A stretch of 64,000 nucleotides of DNA, taken from positions 408,501 through 472,500 of the forward strand of contig JAYKKM010000119.1 of assembly GCA_035772405.1 (NCBI GenBank), written 5' to 3'. Position 1 is the stretch's first letter; each line of letters starts with the position of its first letter. Source of the DNA: Chrysogorgia sp. JL179-B06. Taxonomy: Eukaryota; Cnidaria; Anthozoa; Scleralcyonacea; Chrysogorgiidae. The notes beneath the pieces were generated by a model. The model searched no databases. It was not told the DNA's origin and worked only from the letters and a program-made list of their open reading frames with translations. The position numbers and the translations under genes are program-made. Positions 9,446 to 64,000 of this stretch are shown piece by piece.

Positions 9446-10444
9446 ATGACTTTGGCATGTGGCACAAAGGGGTCTCGCGCTTGGTGGCGTAAAGTTGATG
9501 TGCTCACGCATCGAAAGGATAAGGTGAATCTGTGCCTCGATAAGGATTTTGTGCTAAATCTGAACACATATTTCGGTAAACTCTGCTACGACGATAACTA
9601 TATCAAGCCTATACCAATGGAAATAACCGATAATGCTTCAATATCGCAATTAACAACAAACCAGGTTTTCAATGCGCTATCCAAAATTAAAAGGACGGCA
9701 ACGGGACCGGACAGTATACCTTATTGGGTTTTTAAGGAGTACGCTGCTATTCTAACTCCAGTTGTTGAAGCTGCATGGAATTTGTCATTGTCTACGCAGA
9801 GTTGGCCGAGTGTATCGAAGGAGGCAAATATTAATCCACTTCCGAAAGTAGACGTCCCTGTGGAAGATGGAGATTTTAGAGGGATCAACATAACTCCGGT
9901 GATCCCACGAACCTTCGAAAGAACCGTCTATAATATATTCAATAAGGGAGATATCGAGGAGTACCTATGTCCAAACCAGTTTGCATATCGAACAGGCGGA
10001 AGCTGTGTCAATGCGCTAATTAAGGTACAATACAACACCTTAAGAGCATTAGATAATCCTGGCAACAAGGCTGTACGACTTTTTACTATGGACTTCTCTA
10101 AGGCGTTTGATAGTGTGAGACACCACCTGTTAGCCGAGAAGCTGAAGACTAGTCCCTTGAGTACGCACATGATAAACTGGTATATAAGCTTTTTTTCAGA
10201 TCGAAAACAACGGGTGGTGTGTAATGGAACGGTCGGTGAATGGAAGGAAGTCAACAAGGGGACTACGCAAGGTAGTGTTAGTGGGCCGCATTTGTTTTGC
10301 ATTTTCTTGAACGATCCAGAAATAGAAGGACTTGAAGGCGTAAACCTAACCAAGTATGCTGATGACTCCACCCTAGGGATTAATGTGAGCGAACACTCGG
10401 ATAACACCCATGCTATAAGAGACGCTATACTTCTGAATTTATAA
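9446..10444 (+). pseudogene. LINE reverse transcriptase, truncated ORF
   Basis: This 332-codon frame, read from the first ATG, is open at its 5' side because the element is truncated. Residues ~66-99 form the pre-RT block (VFNALSKIKRTATGPDSIPY). Others are PLPKVD (131-136), FRGINIT (144-150, finger), MDFSKAFDSV (215-224, motif A with catalytic Asp), GTTQGSVSGPHLF (272-284, motif B) and KYADDSTL (303-310, motif C). These catalytic residues look intact. The remaining thumb and C-terminal domain (normally another 100-200 residues) is absent: the frame stops 22 residues after YADD. The element is therefore a remnant, not a functional RT gene. A 159-codon minus-strand frame over the same bases is a shadow. 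Confidence 0.88.
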
Positions 10445-50832: not shown

Positions 50833-51512
50833 AGTCAAAACGTACCGTAATTCATTTTAGTCTACGTTAAAGTGAAGAATGAGCCGTTTAGTCCAAATGC
50901 TATAGTTGTCTGAATGAGCGCATGTAGTAATGTACTTTTCCATTTTGACCCAATATAATTGGCAGGAAATAGCAAAAATACTTTGTTGATGCTGAAGAGA
51001 TAATTACTTAATCTGTTAATAGACTTGTAAGTAACAGTAGCAGTTCTAGCATCTGCGATCTAGCTAACACAATATACCTATAAATTAGAAGAATCCTAAT
51101 TGAGCTTTTTCCAATACCGTCAGAGATGCTTCATGCTTGCGGCTATATGATAGGGCGTAATTCAATCCCGCTCAAGTGTCATTACTGAGACCATTTTGAC
51201 GCCTGTCTTTGAATATTTGAATATTGTGCGTTAAAAGCCGTTGATACGGAATGGATAATTCCACACAGTTTGGTGAACGTCTTAAAGAAAGGAGGAAAAG
51301 TGCGCTGGTACTTGCATTTAATGCTGCTATAGCTCTCAGTCTGCTGAAATTCTCTTCAACGTTTACAAGGAACCAAATTAACAATCGCACAATCGGTGCC
51401 ATTCACTGTATCATGTATAGTCCGGTGCAATGCTTGGTTATGTATAATTTATATTACTCGGCGTTCCTATTAACAGTGTAAGCGTTTAATGTAGTTTCTT
51501 CAATTTCATTGT
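50833..51512. repeat. Outer inverted-repeat arm, left
   Basis: This arm matches the reverse complement of 56,512-57,072. Outer ends read AGTCAAAACGTACCGTAATT on both sides; the inner end is around GTGTAAGCGTTTAATG...TTTCTTCAATTT. Long stretches are nearly identical: over about 200 bp at 51,120-51,335 I count roughly five differences. The left arm is ~120 bp longer, partly from extra sequence at about 51,005-51,110. It contains a short open frame that is conserved in the other arm. Confidence 0.88.
51251..51481 (+). CDS. Small open frame in the outer arm (hypothetical, possibly an exon remnant)
   Basis: This 76-codon frame starts MDNSTQFGERLKERRKSALV, then LAFNAAIA. The inverted counterpart near 56,750 reading leftwards has the same first 28 residues; the only base difference over these ~85 bp is a T/C change in an Asn codon (synonymous). 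After AIA the two arms diverge and the proteins differ completely. I recognise no family. It may be part of a transposon gene or a cellular exon captured in the repeat, or just chance in a recently copied DNA segment. Confidence 0.25.
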   Translation: MDNSTQFGERLKERRKSALVLAFNAAIALSLLKFSSTFTRNQINNRTIGAIHCIMYSPVQCLVMYNLYYSAFLLTV

Positions 51513-52418
51513 TATGCAACATATATATAATCTATTATTATAAAACTTATCTCGTTAGAGCATTCGTGCCGACCTAATTGAATACCGACGCATAAAGATT
51601 ATCTAAATGATCTTATCTACTATTGCGTGTTTCTTGTCATATTTATAATTACCATCTTGTTAGCAGTCTCCTGAAAATCTTTTATTGTCTTTAATTAGAA
51701 TGATTTTATACCACACGCACATTTGTTGATTTTGTTTAATTAAATTGAGCATGATTGGGTATTAAATTTAAGCGAAGAAGAACCATTCGATTAATTTACA
51801 TTAATTGTCGTAACGAACCTTTAAAGTCGAATTGGTTCTTAAATACTTTGTGAAACTGTAAAATGATATAACGATTATGGAGCTTATGATATCTCCTATC
51901 TTACCATGTCAATTTAGTTAGGAACTAAAATTATTTACTATATGGAAAAACTTTTCAACCGACTTGCCTTGGCCAGAGTATTCCAGAGCAACGCCTTTAT
52001 TTTGTCGAGCAAGAGACTCAGTCCAAATCCACCTGATTGGTTGATCTAAGATTACAGTTATCAATCACATTTACCCTCTGAACGAATAAGTCGCAGAGAG
52101 ACCACAGAGACCAGAGAGAACAGAATATCCAGAAGAGCAGTATATACAGAGCTGCGCTGAGCAGAACCCAACCAAGAAGAGAACCTTGAGTGAGAAGAAC
52201 TTCTCGAGCCCTGAAACTTATCCTTGAACCTTGAATCTTTAACCTTGAATCTTGAACTTATCCTGTGAACAGAACGACAACCGTATAAAGAACTCAGAAG
52301 ATCTAAAGAATAGCGAAGTAAAGCAGAACAAAGAACACGAAAGAATATCCTGAACATTTGAACTAACTTTATATATACTTTTAGTAGATTCCTTGCATTT
52401 GTTATCCTATTAATAACT
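51513..52418. other. AT-rich interval with no recognised gene
   Basis: There is no homologue of this interval on the opposite side of the inverted nest, so it may be an insertion into the left arm. At 52,090-52,140 a short tract (CGCAGAGAGACCACAGAGAC) resembles the satellite unit, and nearby CCTTGAATCTT/CCTTGAACC words repeat. A 98-codon minus-strand frame (52,061-52,357) covers this low-complexity tract and has no motif I know. Confidence 0.6.
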
Positions 52419-52543
52419 TCTTATTAACCGAGAGCGCGGTCATTACGGGATTATCAGACCGAGCCCGCTAGGGCGAGGTTCGTACATAAAAGACCGAGGT
52501 CTGATATTTTCCCGTAATGACCAAGCGTTCGAGGTTAATAAGA
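52419..52543. mobile_element. Foldback element, ~125 bp
   Basis: The left arm has CTTATTAACCGAGAGCG, GGTCATTACGGGA and ATCAGACC. The right arm carries the complements in reverse order (GGTCTGAT, TCCCGTAATGACC written as TTTCCCGTAATGACC, and GGTTAATAAGAG). The loop is AG/GC-rich. Arms of about 42-46 bp with some mismatches and no coding content suggest a short MITE. Confidence 0.7.
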
Positions 52544-52868
52544 GGTTTATTATATGGCATGTCTTTTTTAAACAACATACTTTACATACGTTTTGAGTGA
52601 CAGAATCGTCATTTTCAATCTTGTTCTTGTTCTTCTATTGCTTTCATGATAGTAAGACTCTCTTTAGATTGTTCATCGTCCGAATCGTAGATGATTTAGT
52701 GCTTAATTTACTAAATTCGTTAAATTTTTGCTGCTTTTCAAAGTTTCCTATCGTTGTAAACAAAATGGCTGACAAAATCCGTAATCCGGACCGGTCCATT
52801 ACGGGAAATAACGAACCGGCACGTGACGTGTCTCAGCCAATCAGAGCACGCAATTTCACCGGAAGTAG
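52544..52868. other. Interval between foldback elements, no recognised gene
   Basis: AT-rich at first, then GC-richer around 52,780-52,830, with short internal inversions (CCGTAATCCGGACCGG, CCATTACGGGAAATAACG). A 100-codon plus-strand frame starting 52,597 has no motif I recognise. Confidence 0.5.
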
Positions 52869-53404
52869 CTTGTACCTTGTATACACAAAATGTTCATGAA
52901 CTTATATGGTTCATGAACTATCACTTTCATGAACTCGGCCATTTAATGTTTTGATGCATGGGCATGAACTGTTCATGTACTAGTGGATATTCATGGACAA
53001 AATTAATGACCTAATTATCGAACAATTCATCACATTTTCACCGGGGAGTTCATGAACAATTCATTAACAATGTTCATGAATTGTTCATCAAAATTTATAA
53101 CCGTATTATATTCCTAATTAAGTTCATGAACTATTCATGAACTGTGAACATCATCAACCTTCCATTTAATGTTCATGAGTTATTTCATGAACAATTCATG
53201 AACAATGTTCATGAATTGTTCATGAATGTTCATAAACCGTTTTGCCAAATTCAGCTCATGAACTGTTCCTGAACTAAAATGTTCATGAACTTGAATAATA
53301 AATTTCATTTAATGTTCATGGCATATTCATGAATAGTTCATGAATTTATCAAGAATATTCATGAATAATATTCATGAATTATTCGTGAACAATTCATCAA
53401 ATTT
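52869..53404. repeat. Middle inverted-repeat arm, left (TTCATGAA-rich)
   Basis: It begins CTTGTACCTTGTATAC and ends AATTCATCAAATTT, matching the reverse complement of 55,516-56,041 along its whole length with scattered differences and small indels. Shared non-palindromic landmarks (CTCGGCCATTTAAT, TTTTGATGCA, GTGAACATCAT) show true homology and not merely shared TTCATGAA words. There is no coding potential. Confidence 0.88.
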
Positions 53405-53421
53405 CGCCTGGGTCATTTTTG

Positions 53422-53560
53422 TAGATAGATAGATAGATAGAAACTTTATTTATACACGCTGCCCCGTCAACCGAAGCTGATTTCCACATTGTCTGATTGT
53501 CTGATCATCACAGTCTATCAGACACTTAAAACAACTTAAAACACTTGAAAAGTGTAGAGA
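53422..53560 (-). mobile_element. Probable 3' end of a LINE on the minus strand
   Basis: A (TAGA)n run at 53,422-53,440 is followed by TTTATT (AATAAA on the minus strand, 53,445-53,450) and complex sequence. This is the layout of a LINE 3' end with a tandem tail, like the two dead LINEs in the satellite. No reverse transcriptase is visible, so this is at most a short 5'-truncated copy, and its upstream limit is a guess. Confidence 0.4.
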
Positions 53561-54359
53561 TGACATCACGCGATGTCACGTGTTACGAACACGTGAGTCG
53601 TGAGTTAATATTACAGTTGTTAATAAGACAGTCTATTTTGTACACGTTATATATATATATATATTAAATATATAAACTACTCGTTACAAAAAGTTTAACT
53701 AATCATTACAAAATTACATATTACTGGTAAAAAATTATTTTGTAATGAGTTTGTCAGCATTACTGTCTGTGACATTATTTTTCAGTGAAAACTCGGGCAC
53801 GTCAAAAAACGTTTAAATTTAAAAATTTTGCCTTTTCAGTTTTCACGCTTGGCCCAAGTCCCCTACGCGGTCGACCACACAAATATTTAATTTTATAGTT
53901 TAGTTAATATAATATAATACAATAATTTAGTTTCCACAAAGAGGCTCCAGCAGCAGAATCTAAGGAATTCATATAGCAACAGGAAGTGAGAGCCTGTAGT
54001 AACCTTCGTACTATAAACCATTGACTTTACCGGTATATAAACCATGGAACAATTCTAGTTTACAGTCTTTCTCTAGAAACCAATTACAATATTTGATTGT
54101 AGTAGTGGTGTGGAGCAACATATGGACATTGGAGATGTATACAAGTTGTCACTTAATTCTGTTTTATTGGTGTTTCATACCCGACTATATGCCCAGCCGC
54201 CCTGTGTTGGTGAAATTCAGTTCGAACTGACAAACAAATCCCCTTTTCAAATTGACAATACATTGCGTAAATTTCAGACCGGTCATGCCAGACCCAAATT
54301 TATCATCAACCTGTATGAAAAAAAATTCGATAACGTAGTACGTACATTTTATACAGGGT
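53561..54359. other. AT-rich interior of the middle element, with a small hairpin
   Basis: A (TA)n run lies at about 53,649-53,663. Arms ACTCGTTACAAAA (about 53,678) and TTTTGTAATGAGT (ending about 53,750) make a small hairpin of roughly 75 bp. Frames at 54,021-54,361 are short and overlapping, with no known motif. Confidence 0.5.
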
Positions 54360-55157
54360 AGGTACATTTTGCTGACCCCCAGTCCATGGACCAGGACAAT
54401 CAACCACTGTATACTACATAACATGGACTTCCCTAAAAAAACAATTTTTATGCAAACTGCAGTTAAAATTACTTTAATAATTATTATATTAACGTTATAT
54501 TATGTTTTTTATATTATAATGTTTTTCATGACAAATTAGTATATCATTATGCTATCATCATGCTTGTTTAGGTAATCTTGTTTTGTCAACGCTGGTCAAA
54601 ATATATACCTGCGCGCCGGCTAAATATTCGCTTAATTCAGAAGCCTATTTGCCTATTTGCCTATTGCATGACATTTATAGAGAAGGAAGACACATATCAA
54701 CACCAATTTCGTTTGTTATATTTATAACACCAGATATAAATTAAGAATTAAATAAAAATTAAGATATTTAAATAATTTCAAGATATTTGAAAAGGTTAAA
54801 TATTGCTGGACAGCCTCTTCCAAACTAAACAAGACATGTATATATCTTCATTATCTCTTGTTGACATTTTTAGTTATGGAAATAATCATTGAACATTTTT
54901 AAATTTCTTCGATCTTTGTCTTGTTTTGTCCAGCAATATTAACCTTTTCAAATATCTTGAAATTATTTAAATATCTTAATTTTTATTTAATTCTTAATTT
55001 ATATCTGGTGTTATAAATATAACAAACTAAAGCTATCAAAGCTATCTCTACAAGAGGAAGGGTGAAATAGAAGGACTTCTACAGCGGCCTGTTTTCAATA
55101 GGGTAGTTCATATTTAGGGTGGTCGGTCCATGGACTGGGTGTCAGCGAAATGTACCT
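54360..55157. mobile_element. ~0.8-kb element with 33-bp terminal inverted repeats
   Basis: The left end AGGTACATTTTGCTGACCCC (54,360 on, to GGACC at 54,392) is inverted at the right end (55,125-55,157, ending AAATGTACCT). The ends match except for two or three bases and include the palindrome GGTCCATGGACC-like core (CAGTCCATGGACC). The interior is AT-rich, with a large hairpin at 54,711-55,027 and no transposase. I infer a non-autonomous DNA transposon, nested within the TTCATGAA-armed structure. Confidence 0.7.
54711..55027. repeat. Hairpin with ~101-bp arms and ~114-bp loop
   Basis: The left arm is 54,711-54,812 (GTTTGTTATATTTATAACAC ... ATTGCTGGACA) and the right arm 54,927-55,027 is its reverse complement, with very few changes (such as GGTTAAATATT against AATATTAACC). 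The loop is unrelated sequence. High arm identity suggests a young or gene-converted structure. Confidence 0.9.
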
Positions 55158-55515
55158 TCCCTTTTCCAGCCTTGGCTGAAACCAGGAAATTAAGTAAAAA
55201 TCCCAATAAAGGTCTGAAAATATCCCAAGATTCCCTATTTTTTACCAAAAAATCCCACGGTTCACTGGAGGTTCACAGCTTCATTTCCTGACTAGTTCCC
55301 AGGTCTCTCCCTAAAAATTATATATATACAGGTAGGCAATGTTCCAATGCCTATAGGCACCTATAGGCACCTATAGGCACCTATAGGCATCTATAGGCTA
55401 ATATGTTTCATTATAGGTCGCCTATAGAAAACGTTCCAATTGCCTATAGAAGCCTATAGCATCCTATAGGTTGCCTATAGACATGCCTATAGGTAAGCCT
55501 ATATACTTTTTGAGA
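55158..55515. repeat. CCTATAGG-word cluster (core 55,340-55,505)
   Basis: After about 180 bp of unremarkable sequence, the palindromic word CCTATAGG and near-copies (GCCTATAGA, TCTATAGG) recur about every 10-20 bp. The first four are in tandem as a 12-bp CACCTATAGG-type unit. It abuts the TTCATGAA arm at 55,516 and is the second palindromic-octamer cluster in the region. Confidence 0.8.
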
Positions 55516-56041
55516 AAATTTGATGAATTGTTCATGAATTATTCATGATATTGTTCATGAATATTCTTGATAAATTCATGAACTATCATGAATATGCATG
55601 AACATTAAATGGCCGCTTCATGAAATTTATTATTCATGAACAACAAGTTCATGAACATTTTAGTTCATGAACAGTTCATGAGCTGAATTTGGCAAAACGG
55701 TTTATTCATGAACAATTCATGAATTGTTCATGAAATAACTCATGAACATTAAATGGCCGGTTCATGATGTTCACAGTTCATGAATAGTTAATGAACTTAA
55801 TTATGAAAACGGTTAAAATTTTTGATGAACAATTCGTGAACATTGTTAATGAATTGTTCATGAACAGGGGAAAATTTGATGAATAATTGTTCATGAATTG
55901 TTCATGAATTTTGTCCATGAACATCGATGATAAGTACATGAACAGTTGATGCCCGTGCATCAAAACATTAATTAAATGGCCGAGTTTATGAAAGTGATAG
56001 TTCATGAACATTTTGTGTATACCAGTATACAAGGTACAAAG
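55516..56041. repeat. Middle inverted-repeat arm, right (TTCATGAA-rich)
   Basis: This is the reverse complement of 52,869-53,404, ending GTATACAAGGTACAAAG as the mirror of the left start. TTCATGAA and its variants occur throughout. The minus-strand frame of 84 codons here (55,778-56,032) is low-complexity (Met/Asn/Phe/His-rich) and is not a gene. Confidence 0.88.
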
Positions 56042-56511
56042 ACAAACATCTTCATTATATTATAAGGAATGCGTAATTGGATTCATTTCGGCCGTTTGTT
56101 CGATAGCTAATAACGCAACTTACACAGGACGCGGCTTACACAAGACGCGAAACACTTGTATAAAAGGTACAAAGACTAAATATTCGCGTCTTGCACAAGC
56201 CGCGGCATGTTCAAAAAGGTCGTATAAATGGGTCAGATAAAGGCGCGTCTAATATCGGCTCTCGTATAAACGGCCGTAATCCTTAACCCATCGGCCGAGT
56301 AAGAAACCTTTTCAAATTCTATGTTTAGGCCCGTTAACGCCTGAGATTTTTTGATGCCAACTTCTGGTTTAGTGAAACCACGGCACAATCCGCGGACTGT
56401 GGTTCTACGTAACATGCATCTAATTTAGAAGTTGGCAAGCAATATTTATCGTATAAAAAATCGCACGCAAATATTAAAGCCACGCGCTGTGACAAGACAA
56501 TCAGACAAATT
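56042..56511. other. Interval with a CGCGG inverted pair, no recognised gene
   Basis: CGCGGCTTACACAAGACGCG (56,130-56,149) and CGCGTCTTGCACAAGCCGCG (56,185-56,204) are inverted, with mismatches only in the middle. An imperfect third word (ACACAGGACGCG) precedes them. The rest has no recognised feature; the short frames present lack motifs. Confidence 0.6.
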
Positions 56512-57072
56512 AGCATTAAATTGAAGAAACTCGATTAAACGCTTACACAGAATGTTAACCCCCGAGTAATATAGATTACCAAGCATTATAATATATAACC
56601 AAGCATTGCAACCGGACTACATGATGATACAGAGAAGAAACAATTTGGTATAGATTTATCTCTGAATGGCGAGCTATAGCAGCGTTAAATGCAAGTACCA
56701 GCGCACTTTTCCTCCTTTCTTTAAGACGTTCACCAAACTGTGTGGAATTATCCATTCCGTATCAACGGCTTTTAACGCACAATATTCAAATATTCAAAGA
56801 CAGGCGCCAAAATGGTCTCAGTAATGACACTTGAGCGGGATTGATTTACGCACTATCATATGGCCGCAAGCATGAAGCATCTCTGACGGATTAAGATCTC
56901 TTCAGCATCAACAAAGTATTTTTGCTATTTCCTGCCAATTATATTGGGTCAAAATGGAAAAATTCGAAGTAAAAGTACATGCGCTCATTCAGACAACTAT
57001 AGCATTATTTTGGACTAAACGGCTCATTATTCACTTTAAGTAGACTAAAATGAATTACGGTACGTTTTGACT
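56512..57072. repeat. Outer inverted-repeat arm, right
   Basis: This is the reverse complement of 50,833-51,512, ending TACGTTTTGACT at 57,072. The part carrying the small MDNSTQFGERLKERR frame (minus strand here, starting near 56,756) is the best conserved. Several small indels distinguish it from the left arm, which suggests independent decay after duplication. Confidence 0.88.
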
Positions 57073-58963: not shown

Positions 58964-61135
58964 CGGTATATTTTCGAATATTGTCCCACCAAAAATCTTT
59001 TAAGAGTACAGGAAAAAGGAGAAATAATAAAGAAAAAATAATAACAAGCTGCGTGTAAACAATGCGTAAATAAATTAGTAATGAAACCTCGACTGAAACA
59101 ATTATTTTGTCAATAAAATGTACACGTGCATTGCTATTGCAATGGTTTATATTTTCCTTGCGTCAAGATTTCATGCCAAGCCAATTTTTGTCAACAGTCA
59201 AAACAACCTATGTATAGACCAACCAAAATATTAATATAAATTGTATTGAAACTAGGTAAGCAGTTCGATGAATAGCTGCAGTAATAATTATTTTATTTAT
59301 TAAATGTTCAATCGCGTGTTTAATAGTATGGCCTTCCTGAGAATTATTCCTAGACAATTATTTTTATTACCACATTACGATTTAATTCATGGTAGATACT
59401 TGTAGTACAAAAACAAGACTGTGCATTGACCGATATTTTTGATCGAGTGAATAATCCAGTGCGTTTTTTAAAAAATTATGACTACTGAGGCAAATTATGT
59501 AAGGAGCCTTTTTCCCAATTTTCAATTTACTGAATATAGTGTACAATGTATTGTACACAAAGACCATTACTTTTCTGACTTTTGATCAATTTAAAAACGA
59601 TAAAACAAAGGGATTATTATAGGGAAGACAGGCAGTTGAAAGCCTGAAACGTTTATGATGAAAAGGGCCCACACAGTCTACTGGGGCAAAACCCAAAAAA
59701 ATTGCTTCGCTACTGGGCAAGCAAAGGGCTACTGGGGTAAATGCCCCAGTAGTTATAACGTTAAAAAATACCGTGAGTGAATCGATAAAGAAAGAAAGAA
59801 AATTAATATAATAATTTTCGCAAAAGTCTACAGCATATGTGTATATAACATAACAACAAATATTTCACAAAAAAGCGCAAATTAAAGAAAAGCACGTAAC
59901 GTTGTCATGTATTGTAATCAACATACTCGTATACGTATGTATATTTGCTTATTTAAGTAAATATTAGTATTTGCTTACCTTGAAAATAGTCAGGGAATGT
60001 ACTGCTTTGTGATTGCCTGGTAAAGACTTTGATGTTTTAAATATCGGTCACGAATACAATGTTAGATGTTTATACAATTAATCCCATCATCTATACTTTA
60101 ATTGTTGACTTGCATCTTGGAATAATTATCGTGGGAAGATAGGATCGGACGTTGATAATATTCAGTGCCCAACACTTTTAGAATGCAGAATGAAACAGAA
60201 TTCATTGCGTTGTTTTAAACTAATGTGATGGGAAATAAACCAATAGCTGAAGCGGGATTTTAGTGTGGTGCTACTCGCGTGGGCTACTCGTGTGATTGCA
60301 ACGGTTTATTATTTGCGAGAGACTAAAATGGCGCGGTGAGAGGTAACTTTTGTGTCTCCACTGTATTGCCATATTTTTGGATCTGCGTGTCGTGATTGAT
60401 TCGAAGACATCATGTAAAGTCTAATGACAGTCGATCTACCTGACCTTTCAAAGAACCGAGAGGTCTTATCGTTGTTGAACGTGAAACGGTGGAGGTCACG
60501 ACGCGGGTCAGCTATAGGTATTTTAGTCGTTAGTCGTTGGAAAAATTTTTTTAAAAATATTAGATGCCATATAATTGAGATGTGGCAGTGTGTCTCTCGC
60601 CTAGGATACGTTTCGGCTTGTGATTTCGACCCCTAATTAGTCTTATATAAGTTATTATTATTCGCAGGGAGGCCATGGTTCCTTGGCAAAATTTTCAACG
60701 ATTACCCATAATGCATTTGGAAATTAGTTTACCGGGGGTATATCATTTACTATCAATGCGTCTTCAACACCACCCCCCGACATAATAAAATTTTCACAGA
60801 GCAATGAAAATAAACTACTCGCATAGCTAAACACTACATTTAATATATATATATATATAATATACTCTATTTAGAATATGTAATTAATTCCAAATCTGTT
60901 TTCAGAATTGAAATCGAGTGAACATTGGCCTAGATAACGTTCAAAATCTAGGTATGACGAACCGGTCTTTTGGGATTTGTTATCGACAGACTGCAAATAC
61001 AAATAAGAAGTCTGTGGGCACTAATGGTCTGGATGGGGGAAAGAAAATCTAGGGGTGGGGTGGCAGTGGCCGGTATAAAAGGCTAGCGACGTATTTCTAG
61101 TTGTATCCTAACCGCCAAGGGAGGAGTGATCCAAA
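58964..61135. other. Intergenic interval up to the 28S homology, no supported gene
   Basis: Mostly AT-rich, with a local repeat of CTACTGGGG/GCAAAG words around 59,680-59,760 and a (TA)n run near 60,845-60,858. A 70-codon plus-strand frame at 60,424-60,636 (start MTVDLPDLSKNREVLSLLNV) has no known domain. TATAAAAG lies at 61,074, ~60 bp before the 28S homology. GGGGGAAAGAA at 61,035 resembles a conserved 28S word at about the expected distance, but flanking bases do not fit. Confidence 0.6.
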
Positions 61136-61460
61136 TGTGAAATACCACTACTCTTGTCGTTCTTTTACTTATTCGGTGAAGCGGAGTTGCACGAGAGTGC
61201 ATATGCTTGCGTTAAGATTGTGCTGTGATTGGCGCGGTCGATCCGAGCCGAAGACACTGTCAGGTGGGGAGTTTGGCTGGGGCGGCACGACTGTCAAACG
61301 ATAACGCAGGTGTCCTAAGGTGAGCTCAATGAGAACGGAAATCTCATGTAGAACAAAAGGGTAAAAGCTCACTTGATTTTGATTTTCAGTATGAATACAA
61401 ACTGCGAAAGCATGGCCTATCGATCCTTTAACTCTTACGAGTTTTAAGCTAGAGGTGTCC

Positions 61461-61493
<33 letters not shown>

Positions 61494-61516
61494 AGCCAAG
61501 CGTTCATAGCGACGTT

Positions 61517-61554
<38 letters not shown>

Positions 61555-61596
61555 CGAAGCAGAATTCGCCAAGCGTCGGATTGTTCACCCGCCAAT

Positions 61597-61651
<55 letters not shown>

Positions 61652-61890
61652 TTGAAACGTTGTTGCTATAGTAATTCTGCTCAGTACGAGAGGAACCGCA
61701 GATTCAGACAATTGGCATTTGCACTTGGTTGATTAGCCAGTGGTGCGAAGCTACCATCTGTTGGATTATGACTGAACGCCTCTAAGTCAGAATCCCCGCT
61801 AGAAAGTAACGATTCCATCTCTGGACACACGTTGACGAACGGAAATAGAGGCCCAGGCCTCCTGCGCCACAATGTGCCTGGAAGACCACC
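61136..61890 (+). rRNA. 28S rRNA, 3' part only (domains V-VI)
   Basis: Recognisable from GTGAAATACCACTACTCTTG onward. It includes GTCAGGTGGGGAGTTTGGCT, the peptidyl-transferase region (TTACCACAGGGATAACTGGC), the block from TTCGATGTCGGCTC to AGCAGAATTC, ACCGTCGTGAGACAGGTTAG, and the sarcin-ricin loop AGTACGAGAGGAACC at 61,683-61,697. These conserved blocks look intact. Upstream of about 61,136 the highly conserved preceding 28S segment is missing or unrecognisable, so the 5' ~80% of the gene is not here. The 3' end is estimated at about 61,890 because the terminal helix diverges. Frames predicted inside it are not proteins. Confidence 0.93.
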
Positions 61891-63343
61891 GCGCGCTTCC
61901 AAAGCACTAACTCCACTAAATTGTACCGTTGCCAGAGCGAAATCATTTGCAGACCACTTAAATAAAGAACGAGGTATTGTAAGTAGCAGAGTAGCCTTGT
62001 TGCTACGATCTACTGAGATTTATCCTTCGTTCTGCGATTTGTTTCCTTTTTTTTTATTCCCCCATTATACATCCTCCTGCATTACTTTTCGAGGCGTACA
62101 ACCGATGGGTACGATCTGTCGCAAAAACCACCCTATATTATTAGTAATAATGATTACAGTTCTTTGTATTGCCAGGCGAGAAATCACAATAAGTTTAAAA
62201 TTAGAAACTATAAAGTATTGCATACTGCATGGACTAAAAATAAGTCTTTAAACAAGAGTGAAATGTCATAATTAACTGACTTTGAAATTCTATATTATAT
62301 ATTCTGTTATATAAACGTTTCCTAGAATACCATTGGTCTCACGAATCAACAGAAACGGATTCGATTTTGAGGATAGCAGCTAGGATTAGAAACCGTCTGG
62401 CCAATTGCCGTCGCACATTTGTTGAACACGTTGTTGAACTTCGAAACCATGTTTTCGACATGTATTCTGTTTCATTGTTTTCTCCACGCGAAATATTTCA
62501 TTCCTATTGCTGGTCCCACGGCCAAGTTGGCAACGCTTTACATTCCGTTTCTTCCTTCGTTTGCTCGTTCCGAATAAATACCGAGCATCTACTTCGTGTA
62601 GGCCGATTTTAACAAAGCCAAAACAAACTCGTTCCCAGATCCCCTATCACGCTCCTCGCCCGGAGGCAGGCGGGGAGAGGAGATAACGCCCTGCGAACGA
62701 ACTGAGAATGGTTATTATTTTTCTCACTACGATTCTAATCATTGGCATCGTGTTTGGTCACGTTTCAAAAGTTTTAATATCAAACATCCCGTCAAATTTG
62801 CAATCAACTTTGACGAGTGTCGGTTACGAAAACGCTAACAAAACTCTATTTTTTTAACTCTATTTGTTTAACAATATCAAAACCGCGACCGTATCCAACA
62901 TAACCATTTTCAGTAAGCTTGTAATAAAACATGTTTTAGATATTCCAACTCTTGGAAATAGTTTGCAACTCGACTGCTTTGCAGCCGTCGTTTCCATGCT
63001 ACGAGATATCGTAGAAAATGGCCGCGTTCCCTGGAACTAATGTGAGAGCGAGCGACGATGATGAAGTAAGCACACAGCAGCGTGTAGCAATGCGCAACTT
63101 CACCAAACGGGAAGGCGTCATAATGTCGAAAGCGTCACCCGCTTTTATTATGACGTCGTACGTGTTTCGTACGCCCGTTTGTGCGAAGTTGGCCATCGCT
63201 ATGCGTTGTTGTTACTTTCGCTTTACCGATCGCGCTTGCCTCCTGTGAACTCAATCTGCTTGATCGTACTCAGTTTATACATAAACTGTGTTTTCGTACC
63301 ACGTCTACGTTTGACTGTACGTCTGTTTTTGTAATCGAAAAAT
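61891..63343. other. rDNA spacer without an 18S gene (includes possible ITS1)
   Basis: This ~1.45-kb interval lies between a 28S 3' end and a 5.8S gene. I searched by eye for the near-universal 18S 3' end (GTAGGTGAACCTGCGGAAGG) and for 18S core words and found none. GCGGGGAGAGGAG-type GC-rich sequence near 62,650-62,690 and CGTACGTGTTTCGTACGCCC near 63,157 are local features. The last few hundred bases might be ITS1-like. Opposing frames at 62,999-63,248 look like chance. Confidence 0.7.
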
Positions 63344-63500
63344 ACGACTTCCAGCGGTGGATCTCTGGGCTCGTGTATCGATGAAGAACGCAGCTAGATG
63401 CGATATGTAGTGTGAATTGCACGATCCAGTGAATCATCGAATCTTTGAACGCAAATTGCGCTCTCGGTAATGCCGGGAGCATGCCTGTCTGAGTGTTGTC
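63344..63500 (+). rRNA. 5.8S rRNA
   Basis: About 157 nt with the canonical blocks in order: AGCGGTGGATCTCT, CGATGAAGAACGCAGC, GTGTGAATTGCA, GAATCATCGAATCTTTGAAC, GCAAATTGCGCTCTCGG and GAGCATGCCTGTCTGAGTG. No obvious breaks. The ends are estimated from family consensus. Over the central part the sequence resembles sponge 5.8S as I remember it, which is the main hint on the organism. Confidence 0.95.
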
Positions 63501-63672
63501 GTTCTAGTTCTCAAACGAACTGCTTTGGGATGCCATGGCGTTTCGCCATGTCTCCCTAAATCCCCAGGAAGTAGGCACGTGCTGTTGAGCGCAGACGCCG
63601 AAAGAGCGAACAGCGTCTTCGTGTGCAACTCTCTCTTCACTTCCTGTCCGTTGCATTGAAGTGCCGCGTGTC
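63501..63672 (+). other. ITS2
   Basis: This ~172-nt spacer lies between the 5.8S end and the 28S start, as expected for a short ITS2. TGGGATGCCATGGCGTTTCG in its middle can fold locally (ATGGCG/CGCCAT-type pairing). No coding content. Confidence 0.85.
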
Positions 63673-64000
63673 TCGACCTCAGATCAGGCAAGAACACCCG
63701 CTGAATTTAAGCATATTAATAAGCGGAGGAAAAGAAACTAACAAGGATTCCCTCAGTAATGGCGAATGAAGAGGGAAGCGCTCAACGTTGTAATCTCCGT
63801 CGCTTGCGACGGCGAATTGTAGACTACGGAAGTGCTGTCAAGGCCATGGCGACCATGCCTAAGTTGCTTGGAAAGGTGCGTCGTAGAGGGTGACAACCCC
63901 GTACGTGGCATCGGTCGCACGGCTCGCGAAGCGCTTTCCACGAGTCGGGTTGTTTGGGATTGCAGCCCTAAATGGGTGGTAAACTCCATCTAAAGCTAAA
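63673..64000 (+). rRNA. 28S rRNA, 5' part (runs off the window)
   Basis: It starts TCGACCTCAGATCAGGCAAG, followed by CACCCGCTGAATTTAAGCAT, AATAAGCGGAGGAAAAGAAA and CTAACAAGGATTCCCTCAGT, the standard beginning of metazoan 28S (D1 region), continuing to the window end. Conserved positions look intact, apart from lineage-specific differences such as AATGGCGAATGAAGAGGG. This is a separate gene copy from the 3' fragment at 61.1-61.9 kb. Confidence 0.95.

Follow-up and report, generated by a model that had tools for sequence, protein, structure and literature searches.

Ribosomal DNA (rDNA) is normally present in high copy number. Copies located at the edges of rDNA arrays apparently escape homogenisation, or lag behind in it, giving rise to pseudogenes in human and wheat, according to the portion of the article available (PMC10462631). 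In Daphnia, qPCR revealed a significant difference between the numbers of 18S and 28S genes in 61% of 69 isolates, and 28S was in excess in 76% of these; the same study cites human cases of unequal recombination with a starting point between the 18S and the 5.8S (PMC3315735, partial text). Large-scale variants have also been described in human rDNA, in which approximately one third of the units are inverted or palindromic (PMC7909238, partial text).

We analysed a stretch of 64,000 nt (hereafter referred to as the window) of contig JAYKKM010000119.1 from the anthozoan Chrysogorgia sp. JL179-B06, the right end of which contains rDNA. In common with the canonical animal unit (18S-ITS1-5.8S-ITS2-28S), this locus carries 5.8S, ITS2 and 28S, which are contiguous and in the same order, with pairing between the 5.8S and the 28S. 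The canonical 45S unit also has an 18S gene ahead of the 5.8S, upstream of ITS1, whereas neither an 18S nor an 18S 3′ end was found there, in searches with the SSU model as well as with short motifs. The locus resembles the 45S array-edge copies of human and wheat in that an altered unit is placed at a junction between the array and other DNA; those copies, as presented in the available portion of PMC10462631, are pseudogenised, whereas the present locus retains conserved genes and is devoid of 18S altogether. The incomplete units of Daphnia, and the human cases cited along with them, contain 28S without 18S, as does the unit described here. The former were inferred from qPCR copy counts (PMC3315735, partial text), whereas the latter is a single unit seen in sequence. 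It is probable that the locus represents the left-hand edge of a 45S rDNA tandem array, which has been rearranged and has undergone an IGS-to-ITS1 deletion.

The Rfam matches at the end of the window are all located on the + strand, in the order 28S (3′ part), spacer, 5.8S, ITS2, 28S (5′ part), which is the arrangement proposed in a first-pass annotation of this DNA. The left-most gene is a 5′-truncated 28S (LSU) rRNA gene (RF02543; positions 61137-62042), of which the last ~906 nt are present; its conserved part begins at 61137, against 61136 in that annotation. The final position of the LSU model falls at 62042, so that the gap between the 28S and the 5.8S amounts to 1,303 nt (62043-63345), which is shorter than the ~1.45 kb estimated previously. 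This spacer, lacking any SSU match, may be composed of the start of the IGS fused to the end of ITS1. It is followed by a complete 5.8S rRNA gene (63346-63498; RF00002, model positions 1-154 of 154, 149.5 bits, E 1e-39), ITS2 (63499-63673; 175 nt, delimited as the interval from the 5.8S end to the LSU start) and the start of another 28S gene (63674-64000, 327 nt; RF02543, model positions 1-320, 251.2 bits), which runs off the end of the window. One unit junction is visible. When larger segments were scanned, RF02543 was reported as one joined match across 60986-64000 (591.3 bits), and the 5.8S was masked, because it overlaps this match and belongs to the same clan. The SSU families presumably belong to another clan than LSU and 5.8S, and such masking should not affect them.

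No match of the SSU model was obtained at the gathering score in the whole 64,000 bases, at E≤0.1 within 54-64 kb, or at E≤10 within 61850-63700. The last of these scans did detect the 5.8S. Since this gene, of only 153 nt, was found there with 149.5 bits, a piece of 18S as long and as conserved as this would presumably have been detected as well. The 18S 3′-end motif was absent at ≤3 mismatches. Eight of 11 SSU motifs had no match in the window at the same threshold, and each of the remaining three matched once, with 2-3 mismatches, at positions 9761, 10208 and 48058, all of them outside the rDNA. Control motifs of LSU and 5.8S, picked after the window sequence had already been read, were recovered in place in five cases out of five (four of them exactly). 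The absence of the 18S and of its conserved 3′ end, as claimed in the first-pass annotation, was thus borne out by both types of search. A tRNA scan gave no hits.

We also inspected the conservation of the rRNA sequences. The letters and pairs were counted in hand-copied cmscan alignment blocks (61138-61646, 63674-64000 and the 5.8S, with 61647-62042 outside the count); these alignments are fitted to the structure of the model, which biases the counts toward paired cells, and they stand without relatives as a control. In the left 28S block (61138-61646), 312 of the 317 consensus letters with strong conservation have been kept, together with 109 of the 188 weaker ones. Among its 113 pairs, 84 show the consensus letters, 14 carry two-sided changes that preserve the pairing and 3 one-sided changes that do so, whereas 9 are non-standard and 3 gapped. 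The start of the right 28S retains 130/134 strong and 93/186 weaker letters; of its 81 pairs, 44 are unchanged, 17 have two-sided and 6 one-sided changes, and 14 are unpaired. The corresponding values for the 5.8S are 72/79 strong and 53/75 weaker letters, with 25 pairs, of which 19 are unchanged, 2 have two-sided and 3 one-sided changes, and 1 is unpaired. Moreover, the 5′ end of the 28S pairs with the 3′ end of the 5.8S (-23.7 kcal/mol). Judging from these sequence features, the 5.8S and both pieces of 28S have the appearance of copies of a functional, lineage-specific rRNA and do not resemble old pseudogenes. A search for relatives with a 5.8S pattern yielded 0 matches in viral_contigs and 0 in genome_contigs, sets from which the own or a very near genome is possibly excluded.

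The recognisable rDNA of the window begins in the middle of a gene. When the region 60900-61480 was scanned alone, the left 28S started abruptly within the conserved GTGAAATACCAC core, at position 61137, with nothing continuous upstream. In the larger scans, a weak LSU alignment reached position 60986, with good posterior marks across 60986-61070. The extension of the gene to 60986 was considered and set aside, because the separate scan of 60900-61480 gave no continuous match upstream of 61137. The 5′ limit of the left 28S is not beyond doubt, given this weak continuation of the LSU match, and a strongly diverged 28S stretch of ~150 nt might still be present to the left of 61137. The weak alignment notwithstanding, a truncated rRNA gene abuts non-rDNA at this place, and the 61.1 kb to the left of the truncated 28S contain no other rRNA match at the Rfam gathering score. 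The abrupt start within the core and this long stretch without any further rRNA match together define the locus, by its position, as an array edge.

The spacer opens with a T run, located immediately 3′ of the left 28S. Close to its other end lies a hairpin of 199 nt (63044-63242, + strand), which terminates 103 nt before the 5.8S. The segment 63030-63250 has an MFE of -99.7 kcal/mol (z -7.95), with none of 200 shuffled sequences being equally stable, and 63051-63250 is the most stable among 157 windows of 200 nt covering 56-64 kb. We infer that this long stable hairpin is part of ITS1, and it may be regarded as a candidate ITS1 processing structure. The presence of such a strong hairpin at the position of ITS1, together with the normal 5.8S/28S junction, suggests that the 5.8S was formerly located downstream of an ITS1. 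Comparison of the spacer with the region 48.6-61.1 kb revealed no blastn match at E≤1e-3, and the flank and the spacer have in common just short repeats (20-31 nt, 68-80% identical), taken as chance. In four of the six reading frames of the spacer there was a single Pfam match (E 0.33), below its cut-off. A scan of 61900-63400 with bacterial models, which are unsuited to Pol I, gave 4 sigma-70-type sites against a shuffle mean of 3.0, and 0 terminator-like sites against 1.3, neither number exceeding the chance level.

If the locus is the rearranged left edge of an array, its first gene would be the 28S 3′ end alone, with non-ribosomal DNA fused to its left side. From the following unit, a stretch would be missing that runs from within the intergenic spacer across the 5′ ETS and the 18S into ITS1, and this loss would leave the spacer of ~1.3 kb ahead of a normal 5.8S-ITS2-28S block. 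Both scars may have resulted from unequal exchange or break repair inside the array, the edge being a place where homogenisation would be weak. Complete, 18S-bearing units would be expected to the right, and the deletion would be specific to this unit. Two features count against the edge reading: a single junction is all that is visible, and the left 28S piece is not decayed, while an old edge copy might be.

The main rival to the edge reading is mis-assembly, in which a collapsed or chimeric join within the high-copy array would have set the 28S 3′ end directly before the 5.8S. We consider this unlikely, albeit worth serious attention, given the copy number of rDNA and the fact that its large-scale variants are seriously hard for sequencing methods (PMC7909238, partial text). 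Several features of the assembled sequence speak against such an event, although all of them would be compatible with a clean chimeric join: 56-64 kb is free of N, blastn at E≤1e-3 detects nothing in common between the spacer and the left flank, and the 5.8S, like the end of the 28S, is complete. A further view is that the locus is an isolated fragment, i.e. a lone piece of an array, from a 28S end to a 28S start, without an active array on its right side. The repeat-rich nature of the left flank, with ~48 kb of minisatellite and a large inverted repeat (50833-57072), might suit such a fragment, but the rRNA sequences are not decayed, and we regard this view as extremely improbable.

Another interpretation assumes a split organisation of rDNA, with self-standing 5.8S-28S repeats, the 18S elsewhere in the genome, and a 1.3-kb spacer provided with a terminator and a promoter. 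The lack of 18S in 64 kb and the conserved, seemingly functional 28S pieces and 5.8S are in agreement with this layout. It nevertheless appears very unlikely, since only a single junction was seen, at an array edge and beside a truncated gene, and no promoter was recognised in the spacer by a scan made for bacteria and not for Pol I. Furthermore, no animal with such a layout appeared among the open-licence literature matches listed, as judged by the title and the start of the abstract, and we know of no animal in which 18S is unlinked from 5.8S-28S. The first-pass annotation had offered both a split operon and a rearranged edge copy. The latter is favoured by the 5′ cut of the left 28S and by the lack of other rRNA in the 61 kb to the left, whereas the missing 18S is the only positive support for the former.

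Should the split layout prove to be genome-wide, the rRNAs of the small and the large subunit would be derived from separate transcripts, an organisation that, to our knowledge, would be very unusual among animal rDNA. If the array is otherwise ordinary, the locus calls for caution against deducing operon structure from a single array edge. It would then also illustrate, at the level of sequence, an array edge harbouring a unit without 18S, such as was inferred from the Daphnia copy counts (PMC3315735, partial text).

The region between ~48.6 kb and the rDNA is an AT-rich flank of ~12.5 kb. It contains a TATA-box-like word, TATAAAAGG, at positions 61074-61082, separated by 54 nt from the left 28S, which may have occurred by chance. 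The only Pfam match in the six reading frames of 58.0-61.1 kb was to Nlp36 (E 0.04), below its cut-off. A retroelement at the joint was also considered and rejected, as a tblastn search with the 120 RT proteins listed gave matches at E≤1e-3 in 3.5-5 and 9-11 kb alone. Most of the window upstream of the flank (positions 1-48615) is occupied by a degenerate minisatellite of the AGACACAGAG kind, ~48 kb in length. Stretches with ORFs encoding putative reverse transcriptases (RVT_1) interrupt it within 3-5 kb and again within 9-11 kb. Among the 120 of 316 RT matches that were listed, 11 carried a taxon name, and all of these were cnidarian: five from Paramuricea, three from Stylophora, and one each from Dendronephthya, Montipora and Nematostella. 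As an indication of the host this is weak, since retroelements may be misleading. Within the flank, blastn revealed a large imperfect inverted repeat (50833-57072), in which three blocks (50833-51001, 51117-51509 and 52909-53404) match the segment 57072-55516 in reverse, with 80-91% identity. In its structure, this repeat resembles a long-armed DNA transposon.
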